From Desulfatibacillum sp. (lineage in GTDB: Bacteria; Desulfobacterota; Desulfobacteria; Desulfobacterales; Desulfatibacillaceae), in contig JAEINP010000025.1 of assembly GCA_016342355.1 (NCBI GenBank), positions 1-64,000 on the forward strand: a DNA stretch of 64,000 bases, in the 5' to 3' direction. The notes under the pieces are model-generated. The model did not search any database and was not told the DNA's origin. It was given only the letters and a program-made list of their open reading frames with translations. Positions 27,295 through 34,961 of this stretch are shown here, piece after piece (positions within the stretch are counted from its first letter, which is position 1; each line of letters starts with the position of its first letter). Both the position numbers and the translations under genes were made by a program.

Positions 27295-28110
27295 ATGCTC
27301 ATCCAGGGCTTTAAGGATTTTGAAATTATGCAGCCTCCCAGGCGGATGAACCGTCCTGCGTGGAACGCTTTTTTCAAGCTGGACCTGGATATATCAGGAC
27401 TCTTCCCATACATAAACGCCATAGTGGATGACGCCCTTTATTTTGAACGGCCCCATTACATACGTTTTATCATGGAGGAAACCGGTTGCATCCTGTACCC
27501 CCAACGCGCGATTACCGGCCTGTTTCCCGACCGGGAAGAAGCCCTGGCTTTTGCCTGGAAAGTCATCGATTTCCTCAACAGCCTGGATGCCCGAAAAGGG
27601 GAAATATCCCCCAACCACAGAAAATTCAAGCATATTTCGGTCCTGGATATATTCAAAATTCTGCCCCGGACCAATTGCAAAAAATGCGGCTACCCCACCT
27701 GCATGGCCTTTGCCGCCGCCATAAGCGCCCACGAGGCCGTTCCCGGCCAATGCCCGGATTTTTCCCAACCCATCACCACCACCACCACCTATCCGGTTTT
27801 TGACAAGCAGGGGCATTTGGTTTCCACTGTGGAAATCGAAACAACCGGCCAAGAGCCCGACCCCCTTACCCCCCCTGTACCCCCTGAGAAGGACGCTCCA
27901 GCCCCGACCCCGTTCGGCGAAATCCTTACTACCCGGGAAATCGAAGTGCTCCGTCTTTTGGCCGAAGGCTTTACCAACGGTGAAATCTCCGGCATGCTTA
28001 CCATCAGCCCGCACACCGTCAAAAGCCACGTCATTCATATTTTCAACAAACTGGGAGTAAACGACCGAACCCAGGCCGCGGTGTGGGCCGCCAAGAACAA
28101 CCTGGTGTAG
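27295..28110 (+). CDS. LuxR-type regulator fused to a corrinoid-protein-type [4Fe-4S] domain
   Basis: A 271-residue protein with three parts. The N-terminal region (about 1-115) has no clear family. Residues 124-156 carry Cys128, 131, 136 and 153 in the pattern C-x2-C-x4-C-x16-C, the 'FeS' motif of CODH/acetyl-CoA-synthase corrinoid subunits and related proteins. After a proline-rich linker (about 185-207), residues 208-268 are a GerE/LuxR helix-turn-helix (LTTREIEVLRLLAEG, NGEISGMLTISPHTVKSHV). It probably binds DNA in response to redox state or cluster occupancy. It sits 2 kb upstream of a corrinoid methyltransferase operon, a fitting target. No ribosome-binding site stands out before the ATG. 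Confidence 0.85.
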   Translation: MLIQGFKDFEIMQPPRRMNRPAWNAFFKLDLDISGLFPYINAIVDDALYFERPHYIRFIMEETGCILYPQRAITGLFPDREEALAFAWKVIDFLNSLDARKGEISPNHRKFKHISVLDIFKILPRTNCKKCGYPTCMAFAAAISAHEAVPGQCPDFSQPITTTTTYPVFDKQGHLVSTVEIETTGQEPDPLTPPVPPEKDAPAPTPFGEILTTREIEVLRLLAEGFTNGEISGMLTISPHTVKSHVIHIFNKLGVNDRTQAAVWAAKNNLV

Positions 28111-28168: not shown

Positions 28169-28197
28169 TTGACAATCGACCCCTTTCCCCCTTAAAT
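28169..28197 (+). promoter_or_regulatory. Candidate promoter of the RAYT-TetR fusion gene (possibly leaderless)
   Basis: TTGACA (28169-28174) and TTAAAT (28192-28197) are 17 bases apart. The expected transcription start (about 28203-28205) coincides with the ATG at 28205, and no Shine-Dalgarno sequence is present, so the message may be leaderless. Confidence 0.45.
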
Positions 28198-28204
28198 GCA
28201 ACCC

Positions 28205-29884
28205 ATGGGACGAATACCACGGATTGAATACGAAGGCGCTCTTTACTATGTACAGGCCCTGGCCGAAACTGACCTGACAGGCACGCAAGCCCTGGCCCAG
28301 TCTTTCCTGGACCTCATAGACCGCATGGGGGAACGCTTTTCCGTCACCCTCTTTGCTTACGCCCTGCTTCCCGGGGAATACCACCTTCTCCTAAAAACAG
28401 AACAGGCCAATCTTACCCGGGCTTTTCAGTGGTTTAGCACAGCCTATTCCCGGAGACACAACTCCCTGACCCGCCGCCAAGGGCCTGTATTCAAAGGGCG
28501 GTACAAGGCCGTGATCGTGGAAAAGCGCCAAAGCCTCCTGTCCCTGGCCCATTGTATCCACCAGACTTCCGCCGGGCTCTCCACCAACACAGACCCCGCC
28601 TCCTATGCCTGGAGCAGCTACCAGGCATATGCTGGCGATACCCGGGGACCTGCCGCCCTGGACATCTCTCCAGTGGCTTCCATGCTGGAAGGATGCCCCT
28701 ATGCCAAAGATTTCAAGGACTTCCTGAAATCAGGTCACGACCCTCTGGCCGAAATCCTGCACGGCGCGTTCCTGGGATCTGCGCCCTGGGCCGAAAAATT
28801 GCTGACCCGGGCCAGAGTCCCCAAGCCCATGAACAGTCACCCCGCCCCCCCGGAGCAGGGTGTGAAAAAGGGTCCGGCCAATATCGCCCGGGCCATTGAC
28901 CGGGTATGCGCTCATATAGGAATTCCCAAGGCCGTCCTGCTTTCCAGAACACGGAGGCGCACCCACGCCAAGGATTTGCGCGACGCCCTGATTGTGCATC
29001 TTTTTGAACAGGGCCAGTACGCCAGCCAGGAAATCGCCCATGGATTCGGTCTTACAGACTCGGCGGTCAGCCACACGGTCAAGGCTTTCAGGGCGCGCCA
29101 GGAGGCTGGTGAAAGCCACCCGGACCAGGCATCAGGCACAGTGGCCAAAGCCCTGCTTCCCAACCCGGACGGGGATGCTGGCGCCCCCCCGGAGGAGGTG
29201 ATAGCCAGCATGGAACGCCGGATTCACAACGTGAGTTTTGTCCATGGCGCCCGGGGATTGAACCGGTCTCCGAGCCAGGAGGACAAAACCCAGCGTATGC
29301 GCCGTCAGTTGATCCTGTCCACCCTGTTTTGCCTGCACCAGCACGGCTACCACGGAGCCACCCTGTCCCGCATACTGGACCACGCCGGGGTTTCCCGGGG
29401 CGCCTGGCGCCATCATTTTGAAAGCAAAACCGCCCTGGTAGCCGCCGCAGCCCAGGCCATGTATGAAGGCACGGCCCGCCTGGCCCGGGAGAACGCTCCT
29501 TTGTTGGCCCGGGATCCCGACCCCCTCATGGCCATGTTTGACTTTATTTGGGTTACTTTTCACCAGGGCTGGCACCGGAATGTGTGGCTGGAATTCACCG
29601 TGGCAGCCCGCACGGACCAACGCCTGCGGGAGCTGATCGAGCCGGTCACCCAGGGGTTTTTCCAGATCGTGGCTGGCTTGGTGACGGAGCACCTGGAGTC
29701 TCGGGACCCTGAAAACATGCCGCCCGCCCTGCTCATGGACCTGAGTCTGTACCTCTCTCGGGGTATGGCCATCCAGTCTGTCGTGGCCGGTAACGAAGCC
29801 CATTACAAAATTCTCCGGGCGGCCTGGGGCCAACTGCTCCGTCCCTATTTTCGGTTTTTCCGGGACCGGGGTTCCGGTTCCTGA
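28205..29884 (+). CDS. Fusion protein: REP-associated (Y1/RAYT) transposase domain + DnaA-C-like HTH + TetR regulator
   Basis: A 559-residue single ORF. Residues 1-200 are a RAYT/Y1 domain (GRIPRIEYEGALYYV at the start; GPVFKGRYKAVIVE and SYAWSSYQAY later). The family's HUH motif (usually PNHYH) reads PGEYH (E58, H60), and the nucleophilic Tyr of RYIHxNPVRAGL is Cys117 with a short deletion, so cleavage activity is probably lost. Residues 223-300 are the helix-turn-helix often appended to RAYTs (YASQEIAHGFGLTDSAVSHTV). Residues 361-559 form a full TetR regulator (GATLSRILDHAGVSRGAWRHHFESKTALV) with its ligand domain. I chose ATG 28205 because RAYTs begin 'MxRxxRIEY'; ATG 28196 is an alternative. 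There is no frameshift or stop at the junctions. It probably binds the palindrome at 30095. Confidence 0.9.
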   Translation: MGRIPRIEYEGALYYVQALAETDLTGTQALAQSFLDLIDRMGERFSVTLFAYALLPGEYHLLLKTEQANLTRAFQWFSTAYSRRHNSLTRRQGPVFKGRYKAVIVEKRQSLLSLAHCIHQTSAGLSTNTDPASYAWSSYQAYAGDTRGPAALDISPVASMLEGCPYAKDFKDFLKSGHDPLAEILHGAFLGSAPWAEKLLTRARVPKPMNSHPAPPEQGVKKGPANIARAIDRVCAHIGIPKAVLLSRTRRRTHAKDLRDALIVHLFEQGQYASQEIAHGFGLTDSAVSHTVKAFRARQEAGESHPDQASGTVAKALLPNPDGDAGAPPEEVIASMERRIHNVSFVHGARGLNRSPSQEDKTQRMRRQLILSTLFCLHQHGYHGATLSRILDHAGVSRGAWRHHFESKTALVAAAAQAMYEGTARLARENAPLLARDPDPLMAMFDFIWVTFHQGWHRNVWLEFTVAARTDQRLRELIEPVTQGFFQIVAGLVTEHLESRDPENMPPALLMDLSLYLSRGMAIQSVVAGNEAHYKILRAAWGQLLRPYFRFFRDRGSGS

Positions 29885-30064: not shown

Positions 30065-30114
30065 TTGACAGAACCCCAGGGGCTTGGGCATCATAAGACC
30101 GAATGGTCGGTTTT
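30065..30114 (+). promoter_or_regulatory. Promoter/operator region of the methyltransferase-lut operon
   Basis: A perfect TTGACA (30065-30070) is followed by the palindrome ACCGA-ATGG-TCGGT (30098-30111), which also reads GACC-GAAT-GGTC (30097-30108). This is the usual form of TetR-family operators. The -10 element is weak (TCATAA, 30091-30096). The operator lies 40 bases before the corrinoid-protein ATG and about 210 bases after the TetR-fusion gene, which makes the fusion protein the natural candidate to bind it. Confidence 0.6.
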
Positions 30115-30151: not shown

Positions 30152-30790
30152 ATGAAAATCCTGCAAGATCTCAAACAAGCCGTTGTCCTATGCCACACAG
30201 ACCAAATCCGCTCCCTCACCCAACAAGCCCTGGATCAGCATATTGAGCCGGACCGCATCATCCAGGAAGGCCTGGTGGCGGGCATCCAGGAAGTGGGGGA
30301 AAAGTTCGCCCGAGGCGTCTACTTTCTCCCCGAACTCCTGGTGGCCGGACAAGGGGTCCAGGAAGCCGTAGATATGGTGGAACCCCACATCCCCGCCAAT
30401 ACCGCCAAACGCAAAGGTCGCTTTCTCATTGGCACGGTACGAGGCGACATCCACGACATTGGTAAAAACATCGTGTCCATGATCCTTAAGGTCAACGGAT
30501 GGGAAGTGGAGGACGCAGGCGTGGATGTGGAAGCCCAGGGTTTCTGCGACATGGCCGCCAAAGGCCAATACGACGTCATCGGCCTCTCCGGCCTCCTCAC
30601 CATGACCATGCCCGCCATGGAGGCCACGGTCCAGGCCCTGAAAAATTCCGACCTCACCCCCCAACCCAAAATCATGATCGGAGGCGCCCCCCTCACCCAG
30701 GAATTCTGCGACAAAATTGGGGCGGACGCCATTGGCTTTGACGCGTGGGACGCTGTAACCAAGGCCCAGGCCCTGATCCAGGCCCAATAA
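30152..30790 (+). CDS. Corrinoid (cobalamin-binding) methyl-carrier protein
   Basis: A 212-residue MtaC/MtbC-like corrinoid protein. The N-terminal helical cap (about 10-90; LVAGIQEVGEKFARGVYFLPELLVAG) precedes the Rossmann B12-binding domain with RGDIHDIGKN, where His101 is the lower axial cobalt ligand. SGLLTMTMPAME and IGGAPLTQEFCDKIGAD complete the site. It shuttles a methyl group between a substrate methyltransferase and an acceptor methyltransferase, here probably the two gene products encoded next. ATG 30152 follows a strong AGGAGG. Confidence 0.95.
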   Translation: MKILQDLKQAVVLCHTDQIRSLTQQALDQHIEPDRIIQEGLVAGIQEVGEKFARGVYFLPELLVAGQGVQEAVDMVEPHIPANTAKRKGRFLIGTVRGDIHDIGKNIVSMILKVNGWEVEDAGVDVEAQGFCDMAAKGQYDVIGLSGLLTMTMPAMEATVQALKNSDLTPQPKIMIGGAPLTQEFCDKIGADAIGFDAWDAVTKAQALIQAQ

Positions 30791-30803: not shown

Positions 30804-31856
30804 ATGAAAAAAATGACCGGACTGGAAAGAATGCTCACCACTCTCAAACACCAGGAGCCCGATCGGGTTCCCCATGGCGAACTTCATAATCCCGCTGTTT
30901 GGCAGGCCATAGTCCCCGAGGGGGGAACCTACGAAGACTTTATTGAATTCCTGGATATCGATTGCGTGGTGGGCTACGATAAGCTCACGGGTTGGAACTG
31001 GGAACTGGCAGACCCGGAAAAAGGCATCGTTCGGGATATTTGGGGAGGCCTTCAACGGCTGACCTCAAACCAGCCCAGCCCCATGACTCCTGCTCTTAAA
31101 GGCCCCCGGGATCTGGAGAATTATACCCCCCCGGACCCCGACAAACCCGAACGTTACGAGTGGCTCAAGGGCTGGGTGAGTCGCTGGAAAGGGGAGCGGG
31201 CCTGCATCGCCCACGCCACCGATATCTTTGACATCGCCCGGGAAAGCCTTCTGGGAGATGTCCCATACTTCACCGCCATGATCCAAAACCCCGATTACAT
31301 CGACCATGTCCAGGAAATCATCCTCGATTACAACCTGCGCTACCTGAAAAACTGCATCGAAGTGGGCGCGGACGCCCTGTTCATCACCGGCGATTTCGCC
31401 ACCACCACCGCACCCATGGTCTCCCCCGCCATGACCCGGCGTTTTTTGCTCCCCGCCCTCAAGGCCGCCGTGGACCTGGGACACGAATACGGATTACCCG
31501 TGCTCAAACACAGCGACGGCAACATCATGCCCATTATCGACGACATGATTGACACGGGAATTGACGGCCTCCACCCCATTGACCCCATGGCCGGTATGGA
31601 CATAGGGGCCATCAAAGCCCAATACGGAGACCGCGTTACCCTGTGCGGCAACGTCAGTTGCGCCTATACCCTATGCGAAGCCCCCGTGGAGGAAGTGATC
31701 AAGGAAGTGAAGGACTGCATCCGAAAAGCCGGTCAGGGCGGCGGATATGTCTGCATGTCCAGCAATTCCATCCACTCCGGGGTCAAGCCCGAAAACTACG
31801 TAGCCATGGTAAAGGCCATTCATGAATACGGGGTCTACCCCCTGGATCTTGAATAG
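30804..31856 (+). CDS. UroD-type corrinoid methyltransferase (MtaA/CmuA/O-demethylase family)
   Basis: A 350-residue TIM-barrel protein of the uroporphyrinogen-decarboxylase superfamily. The methyltransferase branch is shown by MTGLERMLTTLKHQEPDRVP at the start, the VLKHSDGN segment and the late CGNVSC, which supply the His/Cys-type zinc site. It should move a methyl group between a methylated substrate or coenzyme and the corrinoid protein encoded 13 nt upstream. The HSDGN form (rather than HxC) is common in members that act on methoxylated compounds, but the substrate is not known. AGGAGGT precedes the ATG. Confidence 0.88.
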   Translation: MKKMTGLERMLTTLKHQEPDRVPHGELHNPAVWQAIVPEGGTYEDFIEFLDIDCVVGYDKLTGWNWELADPEKGIVRDIWGGLQRLTSNQPSPMTPALKGPRDLENYTPPDPDKPERYEWLKGWVSRWKGERACIAHATDIFDIARESLLGDVPYFTAMIQNPDYIDHVQEIILDYNLRYLKNCIEVGADALFITGDFATTTAPMVSPAMTRRFLLPALKAAVDLGHEYGLPVLKHSDGNIMPIIDDMIDTGIDGLHPIDPMAGMDIGAIKAQYGDRVTLCGNVSCAYTLCEAPVEEVIKEVKDCIRKAGQGGGYVCMSSNSIHSGVKPENYVAMVKAIHEYGVYPLDLE

Positions 31857-31930
31857 CACGGATTGTCTCCCTAACAGTCCAGGCCCGGCACGCCTTGCCG
31901 GGCTTGACACAAATGCAGCCAGAGGTCATT

Positions 31931-32737
31931 ATGCTTGTTGTAGGCGAATTGCTCAACGCCAGCCGAAAAGCGGTCAAAACCGCCATCATGAACCAGGACG
32001 CACCATGTGTAGCGGAACTGGCCCGTTCCCAGGCAGAAGCGGGAGCCCACTATATAGATGTCAACGCCGGTGTCTTCCTGGACCGGGAGCCCCAATACCT
32101 CGCCTGGCTGGTCCAGGTGGTTCAAGAGGCTGTGGACCTGCCATGCGCTTTGGACAGCCCCAATCCCAAAGCCATGGAAGCGGCCATGGAGGTCCACCAG
32201 GGAACCCCCATGATCAACAGCATCAGCCTGGAAAAGGACAGGTGGGAAACCCTCCTGCCTTTGGCGGCGCACAATCAATGCAAGGTCGTCGCCCTGTGCA
32301 CATCGGACGAAGGCATGCCCAAAACCCGGGAGCAACGAGTGGCCATCGCCGAAAAAATGATTGACGGCTTGCTGGCCCAAGGCGTGAAAGCCGAAAATAT
32401 TTACGTGGACCCACTAGTGCAGCCAATAGCCACGGATGTGAGTTTCGGAACCCAGTTTCTTCTGGCCATGGAGGACATCCTGTCCCGGTTTCCCGGTGTA
32501 CACACCATGTGCGGTCTGAGCAACATCAGTTTTGGGCTTCCTGCCCGGCAAATGCTTAACCGGACATTCATGGCCTTGGCTATCGGCAGAGGCCTGGACG
32601 GCGCCATTATCAACCCCCTGGACAGGGAAATGATGGCGGTCATCGCCGCATCCGAAGCCCTGGTTGGCAAGGACTGCTTTTGCATGAATTACATCAGGGC
32701 CTACCGCGCCGGCGCCCTGGAAAATCAAACCGACTAG
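31931..32737 (+). CDS. Methyltetrahydrofolate:corrinoid methyltransferase (AcsE/MeTr-like)
   Basis: A 268-residue pterin-binding TIM barrel. The characteristic AcsE/MeTr segments are present: start LVVGELLNAS, AGAHYIDVNAG, ALDSPNPKAME, TPMINSIS, MCGLSNISFGLP and LNRTFMALAIG. The Asp of DVNAG and Asn of GLSNIS line the folate site. It transfers the methyl group between the corrinoid protein and tetrahydrofolate, which puts the operon into methyl-THF and the Wood-Ljungdahl branch. ATG 31931 has an AGAGGT site; upstream Met codons lack one. The 74-nt gap after the UroD-type gene has no terminator. Confidence 0.92.
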   Translation: MLVVGELLNASRKAVKTAIMNQDAPCVAELARSQAEAGAHYIDVNAGVFLDREPQYLAWLVQVVQEAVDLPCALDSPNPKAMEAAMEVHQGTPMINSISLEKDRWETLLPLAAHNQCKVVALCTSDEGMPKTREQRVAIAEKMIDGLLAQGVKAENIYVDPLVQPIATDVSFGTQFLLAMEDILSRFPGVHTMCGLSNISFGLPARQMLNRTFMALAIGRGLDGAIINPLDREMMAVIAASEALVGKDCFCMNYIRAYRAGALENQTD

Positions 32738-32784: not shown

Positions 32785-33516
32785 ATGCAAACAATTTCCC
32801 TGCACATTCCCTGCCTCATGAATATGTTCATGCCCAACACCGGCAAATCGGTGGTCCGCCTTCTGGAAAGGCTGGACATCCCCTTTGTCTACCATGAGGA
32901 CCAAACCTGCTGCGGCCTTCCCGCTTCTAACGCAGGCTTTGTGCCCGAAGCACGCAAAGTGGCAAAACACTTCATCCAAATCTTTGGCGATGACCCGGTG
33001 GTTGTCTCCCCGTCCGGGTCCTGCGTGGAAATGGTCACCCAGCGTTACCCGGACCTGTTCGCCGACGAACCGGACTGGCTGGAAAGGGCCAACGCCCTGG
33101 CCTACCGTACCTACGAGTTCACCCAATATCTGGTGGACGTGCTGGGAATTGAGGACGTGGGCGGGAAGTTTTCCGGCAAGGTGGCGTATCACGAATCATG
33201 CAGCCTGCTGCGGGGCCTGGGCGTCTCCGAACAACCCAAAAAGCTGATCCGCTCCCTGAAAGGCGCAGAACTGGTCCCCCTCCAGAACGCCGACACATGC
33301 TGCGGATTCGGCGGAGAATTCGCCCACAAATACTCCGAGATTTCCGAAACCATGGCTAAGGAGAAAATCGCCAATTACCTCAACTCCGGGGCGGACGTCC
33401 TCACTATGGGCGAACCCGGTTGCTTTTTGAACTTGAGCGGTTATGTCTCCCGAAACCATCCTGGAAAAAAGGTCATGCACATTGCCGACCTTTTGGCCGG
33501 TCCTTCCCATTCCTGA
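32785..33516 (+). CDS. lutA: LutA-like (Fe-S)-binding oxidoreductase subunit
   Basis: A 243-residue two-CCG-domain protein, the same fold as the HdrB/GlcF C-terminus. The first half has PCLMNMFMPNTG and TCCGLPASNAG. The second has HESCSLLRGLG and CCGFGGEFAHKYSEIS. These cysteine motifs bind non-cubane or [4Fe-4S] clusters. In LutABC the complex oxidises L-lactate and passes electrons to a membrane or soluble acceptor. It is placed 47 nt after the methyl-THF methyltransferase and 11 nt before lutB, so it belongs to the same run of genes. Confidence 0.9.
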   Translation: MQTISLHIPCLMNMFMPNTGKSVVRLLERLDIPFVYHEDQTCCGLPASNAGFVPEARKVAKHFIQIFGDDPVVVSPSGSCVEMVTQRYPDLFADEPDWLERANALAYRTYEFTQYLVDVLGIEDVGGKFSGKVAYHESCSLLRGLGVSEQPKKLIRSLKGAELVPLQNADTCCGFGGEFAHKYSEISETMAKEKIANYLNSGADVLTMGEPGCFLNLSGYVSRNHPGKKVMHIADLLAGPSHS

Positions 33517-33527
33517 GAGGTGCGCGC

Positions 33528-34961
33528 ATGAAAATCCGGACTCAAGATTATATGGCAATCGCCCGGGAACAACTCAAGGAACCCAATGCCCGGGCCGTGC
33601 TGGATTTTTTCCCGGTTGTCCTCAGCCTCATGAGGGATGCGGCGTACCAGAGCTTTGCCGATCCGGCTGCGGCCATGCAATGCAGCGGCGCCATAAGGGC
33701 TAACGCCGTGGCAAGGCTTCCCAAATTGCTGGAGCAGTTCGAAGCCCAGGCCATCAAAGCAGGCGCCAAGGTGGTATGGGCCGAAGACAGCCAGCAGGCC
33801 AACGCCTATATTACAGACCTGGCGAAAAAGCGGGGTGTGCAATATGTGGCCAAAGGCAAGTCCATGGTCACGGAAGAGGTTGGGCTGAACGAAGCCCTGG
33901 AAAAGGAAGGCATCTCCGCCTATGAAACCGACCTGGGGGAATTCATCACCCAGCTTTTAAAGCGGCCTCCCTTTCACATAGTAGGGCCTGCCCTCAATGT
34001 TCCGGTGGCGGAGATCCGGGATATCTTCCTGGAAAAAGGAGTGATGACCGAGCCCACGGATGACCCCGTAGAATTGGGCTTGGCGGCCCGGAAATATCTC
34101 AGGGACAAATTCCATCACCTGGACATGGGGGTCACCGGAATCAACATGGCCGTGGCCGAAACAGGGACCATCATCAACGTGGAGAACGAGGGCAACATCC
34201 GCATGTGCAAGTCCTCCCCCAAAATCCAGGTTTCCATCATGACCCTGGAAAAGGTGGTCCCCACCATGGCCGAGGCCATGATGGTCATGCGAAACCTCAC
34301 CCGAAGCGCCACCGGCCAGATGGCTTCCGCCTATGCATCCATGGATACCGGCCCAAAAAAGGCTGAAGAAGCAGACGGTCCCGAAGAACTGCATATCATC
34401 ATCCTGGATAACGGCCGCTCCAAGGTTTACACGGACCCCACATACCGCCAGGCTCTCCAATGCATTCGCTGCGGGGCATGCCTTAATTTCTGCCCCATAT
34501 ACCGCAAGGTGGGGGGATACAGCTACGGATGGGCCTATTCCGGCCCCATGGGCCAGGTGCTGTCGCCCATGCTTTTAGGCCTGGATAAAACCCGTGATCT
34601 TTACCACTCCTGCACCCTGTGCAAACAATGCAAGACCATTTGTCCCGGCGGCGTGGAGCACCCCAAAATCCTCCTGACCCACCGGGCCAGGAACAGGGAG
34701 CAAAATGTTCCATTCCACGGAGCAGGGGTATCCCCGGTAATCGAAGCCCGGTATCGCGGATTTGCGGCAGCCGCTTTGCGCCCCGCCGTATGGAACACCA
34801 TGGTGCGGGTGGTGCGCACGACCCTCAACCAAAGCAAACAGGGTTCCATGATTAAGGAGTTGTTCGGCAAACCCCAAGGCTGGTTCGCCACCCGGGACCT
34901 GCCGCCCATAGGCAGGCCCACCTTCGGCCAATGGTATAAGGAATACAAAAAGCACAAATGA
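33528..34961 (+). CDS. lutB: LutB-like iron-sulfur protein (LUD domain + two [4Fe-4S])
   Basis: A 477-residue LutB. The N-terminal LUD domain (about 55-300; VTGINMAVAETGTIINVENEGN) is followed by ferredoxin-type cluster motifs CIRCGACLNFCPIYRKVGG and CTLCKQCKTICPGG, then the LutB C-terminal segment. It should transfer electrons within the LutABC complex. ATG 33528 was chosen because GAGAGGT precedes it and it lies 11 nt after lutA; a longer in-frame reading would overlap lutA by about 100 bases. A hairpin lies just after the stop. Confidence 0.92.
   Translation: MKIRTQDYMAIAREQLKEPNARAVLDFFPVVLSLMRDAAYQSFADPAAAMQCSGAIRANAVARLPKLLEQFEAQAIKAGAKVVWAEDSQQANAYITDLAKKRGVQYVAKGKSMVTEEVGLNEALEKEGISAYETDLGEFITQLLKRPPFHIVGPALNVPVAEIRDIFLEKGVMTEPTDDPVELGLAARKYLRDKFHHLDMGVTGINMAVAETGTIINVENEGNIRMCKSSPKIQVSIMTLEKVVPTMAEAMMVMRNLTRSATGQMASAYASMDTGPKKAEEADGPEELHIIILDNGRSKVYTDPTYRQALQCIRCGACLNFCPIYRKVGGYSYGWAYSGPMGQVLSPMLLGLDKTRDLYHSCTLCKQCKTICPGGVEHPKILLTHRARNREQNVPFHGAGVSPVIEARYRGFAAAALRPAVWNTMVRVVRTTLNQSKQGSMIKELFGKPQGWFATRDLPPIGRPTFGQWYKEYKKHK

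Follow-up and report, generated by a model that had tools for sequence, protein, structure and literature searches.

Why should a transcription regulator carry a transposase in its own reading frame? The question is posed by a gene in a 64,000-nucleotide stretch of a Desulfatibacillum genome (hereafter the window: positions 1 to 64,000 of contig JAEINP010000025.1, assembly GCA_016342355.1), where an earlier note had described a single uninterrupted open reading frame (ORF) with a REP-associated Y1 transposase (RAYT) domain, a DnaA-C-like helix-turn-helix (HTH) and a complete TetR regulator. That architecture is borne out, as the ORF is open throughout in the ORF listing, and relatives, profiles and a predicted fold agree on a RAYT-type domain, an HTH and a TetR part (Table 1). 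The reading that we favour, with moderate confidence, is that the gene encodes a ligand-controlled TetR regulator of the adjacent methyltransferase operon to which a domesticated, nuclease-dead RAYT has been added as a further module.

Table 1. Features of the fused gene and its surroundings (positions in the window)
Feature	Position	Strand	Basis
Upstream regulator: 4Fe-4S domain and LuxR-type HTH	27295-28110	+	Pfam/NCBIfam, synteny
Promoter-like TTGACA-N17-TTAAAT, 7 nt 5' of ATG 28205	28169-28197	+	read from sequence
Fused regulator gene, 559 aa: RAYT core, DnaA-C-like HTH, linker, TetR	28205-29884	+	ORF, orthologues
RAYT/TnpA-REP HUH-Y1 core, residues 1-145	28205-28639	+	alignments, profile match, predicted fold
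Catalytic positions in core: E58, H60, C117, T121	28376-28378, 28382-28384, 28553-28555, 28565-28567	+	alignments
DnaA domain IV-like HTH, residues 223-300	28871-29104	+	profile, Foldseek, invariant positions across three fusions
Fast-evolving linker, residues 301-348	29105-29248	+	invariant positions, dN/dS
TetR N-terminal DNA-binding domain, residues 349-420	29249-29464	+	TetR_N score
TetR C-terminal (ligand/dimerisation) region, residues 421-559	29465-29881	+	Pfam scan, alignments
Promoter-like TTGACA-N18-CATCAT before methyltransferase operon	30065-30094	+	sequence, consensus scan, pattern scan
Candidate operator ACCGAATGGTCGGT (ACCGA-N4-TCGGT)	30098-30111		sequence, pattern scan
Corrinoid protein (MtgC/MtbC-like)	30152-30790	+	Pfam/NCBIfam, synteny
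URO-D family (MtaA/CmuA-like) methyltransferase	30804-31856	+	Pfam/NCBIfam, synteny
Pterin-binding methyltetrahydrofolate:corrinoid methyltransferase-like	31895-32737	+	Pfam/NCBIfam, synteny
CCG-domain protein (LdhH/HdrD-like)	32785-33516	+	Pfam/NCBIfam, synteny
LUD-domain ferredoxin-type protein; start from orthologue alignment	33528-34961	+	Pfam, synteny

The ORF listing puts the start of the gene at 28196 (562 aa) instead of 28205, and this upstream ATG overlaps the -10-like TTAAAT of a promoter-like pair that is not among the results of the consensus promoter scan. The fusion of D. alkenivorans has a similar pair, TTGACA-N16-TTAAAT, as read from the sequence, and its product begins MGRIPRIEY. 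We regard 28205 as the better start because the pair ends 7 nt before the ATG in both Desulfatibacillum genomes and because of where the orthologue begins. The spacing suggests that the whole fusion may be transcribed leaderless, with a start 7 nt past TTAAAT in both genomes.

The earlier note proposed a domain search and a structure prediction as checks, and these gave a TetR_N match above the cut-off, a core fold like that of the TnpA-REP structure 4ER8 and no listed match to Y1_Tnp. In the Pfam scan, TetR_N scores 39.6 bits in the window protein (cut-off 24) and 43.2 and 36.2 bits in the two orthologues, and the alignment of residues 349-420 with D. alkenivorans gives 86% identity. The C-terminal region of the TetR half matches TetR_C_6 at E 0.03, under the cut-off, with helices predicted at low confidence, and can be aligned with standalone TetRs to near the C-terminus. 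Outside TetR the library support is thin, and the assignments of the RAYT and HTH parts rest on relatives and predicted folds. Specifically, Y1_Tnp has no match in the window protein at E up to 1 in the Pfam scan, and a genome search with this profile returns eight matches in the same genome, the fused gene not among them; against a cut-off of 23, the D. alkenivorans orthologue reaches 20.8 bits when scanned as a protein and 24.3 when its genome is searched. The NCBIfam model REP_Tyr_transpos (E 1.4e-4) and the single-sequence Pfam match to Bac_DnaA_C (E 0.038) are likewise under their cut-offs.

Relatives and structures say more. Residues 1-300 are about 28-35% identical to standalone RAYT-HTH proteins of some 320-340 aa. 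A 10-row profile matches 4ER8 (E 0.0036) and DnaA domain IV (1J1V, E 2.2e-7), and in the profile alignment the HUH histidines and the tyrosine of 4ER8 fall on window residues 58, 60 and 117. The predicted fold of residues 1-151, in which block means of pLDDT are 77-91 for residues 11-100, matches 4ER8 at a VIA Z of 13.6 (rmsd 2.8 over 135 residues); IS608 transposases tie with 4ER8 in Z, and rows for ribosomal S6 fall well short, at Z 8-9. With the full-length model, which is of low quality except in the RAYT core and HTH (overall mean pLDDT 57, pTM 0.34), Foldseek places 4ER8 first (E 1.1e-4) and 1J1V lower (E 0.037). As modelled, the N-terminal part has the HUH-Y1 fold, and profile and model together identify the domain behind it as the C-terminal Bac_DnaA_C-like HTH of RAYT subclass 2.1.2.

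Since the window genome lies in 142 contigs, one might suspect that the fusion is an artefact of assembly or annotation, and the earlier note had named a frameshift or assembly error as grounds for giving up its claim. However, D. alkenivorans (DSM 16219, NZ_FQZU01000010.1) has a full-length orthologue in one ORF of 554 aa (61% identity), and a third fusion of 559 aa (44% identity over residues 2-555) exists in genome G463, which belongs to another class of the phylum (8.9 Mb, 95% complete, 8% contamination). No stop or frameshift interrupts the frame in any of the three genomes, and the gene context is conserved. These orthologues rule out an assembly artefact or frameshift in our judgement, and we give that reading a practically negligible probability.

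The taxonomic survey for this three-domain order, also proposed in the earlier note, shows the fusion to be rare and spread over two classes. Full-length fusions were found in 2 of the 59 relatives and 2 of 389 genomes of the class (best three candidates per genome), in 3 of 395 genomes of the phylum (again the best three) and in one of the three genomes of G463's own family and class. Two other classes, sampled with 17 and 136 genomes, had no fusion among the matches listed (at most 10 candidates per genome being scored in the larger sample), and viral contigs yielded two distant RAYTs and no fusion. These samples are draws rather than whole ranks and overlap one another, and the contig scan used two peptide patterns, neither of which the fusion of G463 matches. 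In quick trees of the two halves, the three fusions lie on one side of a branch, with an SH-aLRT of 100 for the RAYT half (37 rows, from which the fusions differ in amino-acid make-up) and of 87, below the 95 mark, for the TetR half (25 rows, one of them, L083, on a very long outlier branch). Both trees are consistent with a single fusion event, and the two genes were probably joined once.

Other long RAYT frames occur. The 787-aa ORF at L079:760-3123 (+) (G020:C31) has a RAYT domain and a DnaA-C HTH, both over the Pfam cut-off, an intact NHYH...YIHRNP active site and more than 400 further in-frame residues that have no Pfam match at E up to 1; it is another fusion of the same transposase group. 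At L080:1352-2920 (-) (G315:C100), a RAYT lies in a 522-aa frame whose tail past the HTH looks, by eye, like out-of-frame translation.

Is the transposase part of the fusion still an enzyme? The residues that the earlier note gave for positions 58, 60 and 117 of the window protein are correct, whereas its statement that the NPVRA stretch is shortened is not: in the window the stretch is replaced by QTSAG, and it is in D. alkenivorans that the equivalent stretch is one residue shorter in the alignment. That note had also allowed that EYH and Cys might be normal variants of an active clade. We aligned the fusions with 34 standalone relatives (RAYT ORFs of more than 280 aa with alignments of more than 90 residues, identical ones merged, short or cut copies left out, two rows from viral contigs), and H58, H60, Y117 and N121 are invariant in 34 of 34, so that none has the EYH or Cys variants. 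In the order window, D. alkenivorans and G463, the fusions have E, E and R at position 58, H, H and D at 60, C, Y and H at 117, and T, L and L at 121. The last position corresponds to N119 of the E. coli TnpA-REP protein, which is described as a metal ligand in the part of PMC6006769 that we consulted. The window protein lacks the set of two histidines, asparagine and tyrosine expected of an active RAYT, and on this alignment we file the fusion as derived from a RAYT rather than as an active one.

The losses common to all three fusions are those of H58 and N121, because Cys117 is private to the window species; the tyrosine is lost in two of the three, in different ways. A role for Cys117 as a conserved adaptation is rejected, given the tyrosine and histidine of the orthologues. 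The proposal of domestication with lost catalytic residues is supported by three genomes of two classes, by the residues lost and by purifying selection (see below). Could the RAYT part nevertheless be an active single-stranded DNA nuclease or transposase whose activity is regulated by the TetR fusion? His60 and Tyr117 persist in D. alkenivorans, where an asparagine stands one place before the usual ligand position, and the fold is predicted to be intact. Set against this, every fusion has lost at least two of the three metal ligands at aligned positions, and G463 has lost all three together with the tyrosine, which makes such an activity very improbable in our view. Because metal ligands and nucleophile that are invariant in 34 of 34 standalone proteins are replaced in the fusions, nuclease activity has probably been lost.

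The RAYT fold and the HTH are still under purifying selection as judged from substitution rates. Between the window and D. alkenivorans, dN/dS is 0.34 for the RAYT core (95% bootstrap 0.20-0.52), 0.21 for the HTH (0.08-0.43), 0.16 for TetR (0.10-0.25) and 0.62 for the linker (0.24-1.16), values that are rough with dS near 1. Across the three fusions 51 of 145 core positions and 26 of 78 HTH positions are invariant, compared with 2 of 48 in the linker. Standalone RAYTs share 42 positions with a conservation of at least 90%, and 20 of these are kept in all three fusions.

The last figure could also be read as favouring a RAYT that is a passive passenger, or purely a structural spacer or dimerisation element, while TetR, with or without the HTH, does all the DNA reading. 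The other 22 of those positions are not kept throughout, the core evolves faster than the TetR half, and inspection of the spacers brought up no further conserved DNA element. On the other hand, a pure passenger should resemble the linker, and the core has neither stop nor frameshift in three genomes, has about a third of its positions invariant and has a dN/dS clearly below 1. A structural role is compatible with this argument, and we consider the passenger or spacer reading possible, though somewhat unlikely. Because constraint is retained, we believe that the transposase part matters to the regulator, be it for DNA reading, for bridging of dimers or for holding the HTH, all of which fit the constraint alike. 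If there is a second DNA contact, the HTH, whose stretch TDSAVSH is invariant in the three fusions, is a better candidate for it than the rest of the transposase part.

What, then, might the fused protein regulate? All three fusions precede a corrinoid-protein/methyltransferase pair. Seven consecutive genes have the same order in D. alkenivorans, and in G463 the fusion is directly followed by the corrinoid gene (56% identity) and the URO-D methyltransferase gene (74-75%). A search with the URO-D protein at E up to 1e-110 finds matches in 4 of the 395 phylum genomes (window 100%, D. alkenivorans 89%, G463 75% and G444 56%), and at E up to 1e-100 one further match appears in the 389 class genomes, in G358 (57%). 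Inspection of the ORF lists of G444 and G358, with minimum lengths of 150 and 180 aa, revealed no RAYT or TetR beside the pair. Since orthologues of about 75% identity or more sit in just the three fusion genomes of the 395, the fusion and the methyltransferase travel together as far as sampled. The gene upstream of the fusion, with a CFeSP/RnfB-like 4Fe-4S domain (Pfam FeS 1.6e-14) and a LuxR-type HTH, is syntenic in D. alkenivorans (66% identity) and might act on the same operon as a sensor of redox or corrinoid state.

The TetR half seems to have come from elsewhere. Its standalone relatives, about 38-46% identical, belong to other families of the same order, and the clustered neighbours of the nearest ones, scanned in nine representatives, are of the 2-hydroxyacyl-CoA dehydratase, AMP-binding, penicillin-binding, FAD, TPP-enzyme, actin-like and sulfate-permease types, with one that has no match. 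Among the TetR neighbourhoods compared, corrinoid genes occur beside the distant TetR of locus L070 alone, and for this reason the ancestral role of the TetR half was probably not this operon; a TetR that was the operon's regulator from the start is rejected on the neighbours of the nearest standalone proteins. The distant TetR just mentioned, at L070:5045-8445 (G005:C28) in another genome of the same family, is 32% identical over residues 359-478 and lies directly before methyltransferase, URO-D and corrinoid genes, a parallel arrangement with an unfused regulator. Several genomes have nearest standalone TetRs near HGD-D (2-hydroxyacyl-CoA dehydratase type) genes (L048, L055, L057, L067 and L071), a neighbourhood for which one representative from each of two clusters was scanned with Pfam and the others were placed by BLAST clustering.

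A palindrome that the earlier note had placed at 30095 is present before the corrinoid gene, although its position is 30098-30111. Here the window reads TTGACA-N18-CATCAT-AAG-ACCGAATGGTCGGT, so that the palindrome starts 3 nt after the -10 box. In D. alkenivorans the otherwise diverged spacer reads TTGACA-N17-CATTCT-TAT-ACCGAGCGGTCGGT, with ACCGA-N4-TCGGT exact and in the same place. When promoter and palindrome are combined into one search pattern, modelled on the two sites themselves, each Desulfatibacillum genome holds a single match, and neither the remaining 57 relatives nor a reversed control yields any. Counts of the palindrome by itself tell a different story: it occurs at 4 places in its own genome versus 9 for the reversed control, and the idea of a genome-wide enrichment is rejected. 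The other three exact copies fall within open frames longer than 150 aa, and with one mismatch allowed the window has 2 matches versus 1.3 expected. Because the palindrome is rarer than its reversed control, it is position and not number that carries the case for an operator. G463 has TTGACA-N17-TATCAT followed at a distance of 8 nt by a half-match, ACCGAACAATCG, and the 12-kb stretch around it holds 2 matches of the half-match type versus 0.82 expected.

Taken by its position near the gene of the fused protein, the palindrome is a candidate site for that protein. We propose that a RAYT of the subclass 2.1 kind, with its DnaA-C-like HTH, was joined to a TetR regulator, and that the fused protein probably controls the adjacent corrinoid/methyltransferase operon of one-carbon metabolism by repression. 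In this model a TetR dimer would sit on ACCGA-N4-TCGGT at 30098, immediately past the -10 box, and would keep the operon from being transcribed until the C-terminal domain takes up a small ligand, which might be a methylated substrate or product; the RAYT fold and HTH may contribute a further contact with DNA or a surface that bridges dimers. Repression is our working model because a TetR dimer at 30098 would overlap the transcription start, and a palindrome that starts 3 nt after the -10 box is in a typical repressor position.

Would activation, or a different protein at the palindrome, account for these observations equally well? The exact palindrome is absent from all 17 standalone TetR loci scanned, three of which have a looser ACCG-N6-CGGT away from the gene; because the exact site is missing at the nearest standalone TetRs, whose neighbours are different, either the TetR half would have acquired a new specificity or another protein occupies the site. 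The FeS-LuxR gene at 27295 is also syntenic and might own the site, as might another TetR, and FasR is described as a TetR-like activator in the abstract of PMC7382501. Nonetheless, no regulator gene lies closer than the fusion, whose linkage to the operon extends over two classes, and the position of the palindrome points to a repressor. We find an activating fusion, or a palindrome that belongs to another regulator, rather unlikely.

A more speculative extension of the repressor model is that the dead HUH core would hold folded single-stranded DNA or a cruciform at the promoter. Such a protein, a ligand-gated, structure-sensing repressor built from a transposase, would respond to a small ligand through TetR and, through RAYT and the DnaA-like HTH, to the structure of the DNA or the state of its replication. 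We put this forward as an idea with little probability of being right.

How does the fused regulator compare with systems already described? Domesticated RAYTs are reportedly the subject of a paper by Bertels et al. In the part of Quentin et al. (2018, PMC6006769) that we consulted, TnpA-REP/RAYT proteins of subclass 2.1 have an HUH-Y1 core and a Bac_DnaA_C-like C-terminus, sequences were selected for HUH and Y motifs, and a few unexpectedly long proteins were discarded as fusions or annotation errors. The whole word TetR is absent from the main text of that paper and occurs 0 times in PMC2817692 and in PMC3733652, and a review of recruited mobile elements (PMC8987985) contains no word beginning with RAYT. 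A literature search, chiefly of titles and the openings of abstracts, turned up no RAYT-TetR fusion. We take the protein to be a TetR regulator that has gained a domesticated and probably dead RAYT as a module, a combination that is probably new. The fusion shares the order of core and HTH with subclass 2.1, as well as the sequence identity given above, and differs in lacking the active-site residues and in having a complete TetR appended. From standalone TetR regulators with a BetI-like C-terminus, with which it shares a TetR_N match above the cut-off and a similarity already noted, it differs by some 345 additional N-terminal residues of transposase origin and by its neighbourhood.

The closest parallel in principle is TldR, a name given to nuclease-dead TnpB proteins that act as transcription factors (PMC13418256, seen in part). 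In both cases a protein of an IS200/IS605-type element lost catalysis, gained a tie to a host gene and became, in the fusion by our reading, a regulator. The original TldR paper is said to be that of Wiegand in 2024. The likeness stops at the principle, in that TldRs are RNA-guided and derived from TnpB, whereas the fused protein has a predicted Y1 HUH (TnpA-like) fold, is joined to a repressor of the ligand-binding type and has no known guide RNA. Given that the RNA-guided TnpB arm of the IS200/IS605 elements has already given rise to regulators by exaptation, the fusion would be a case from the Y1 (TnpA/RAYT) arm, reached by direct fusion, and it makes testable what an HUH transposase fold serves once it is no longer cutting.
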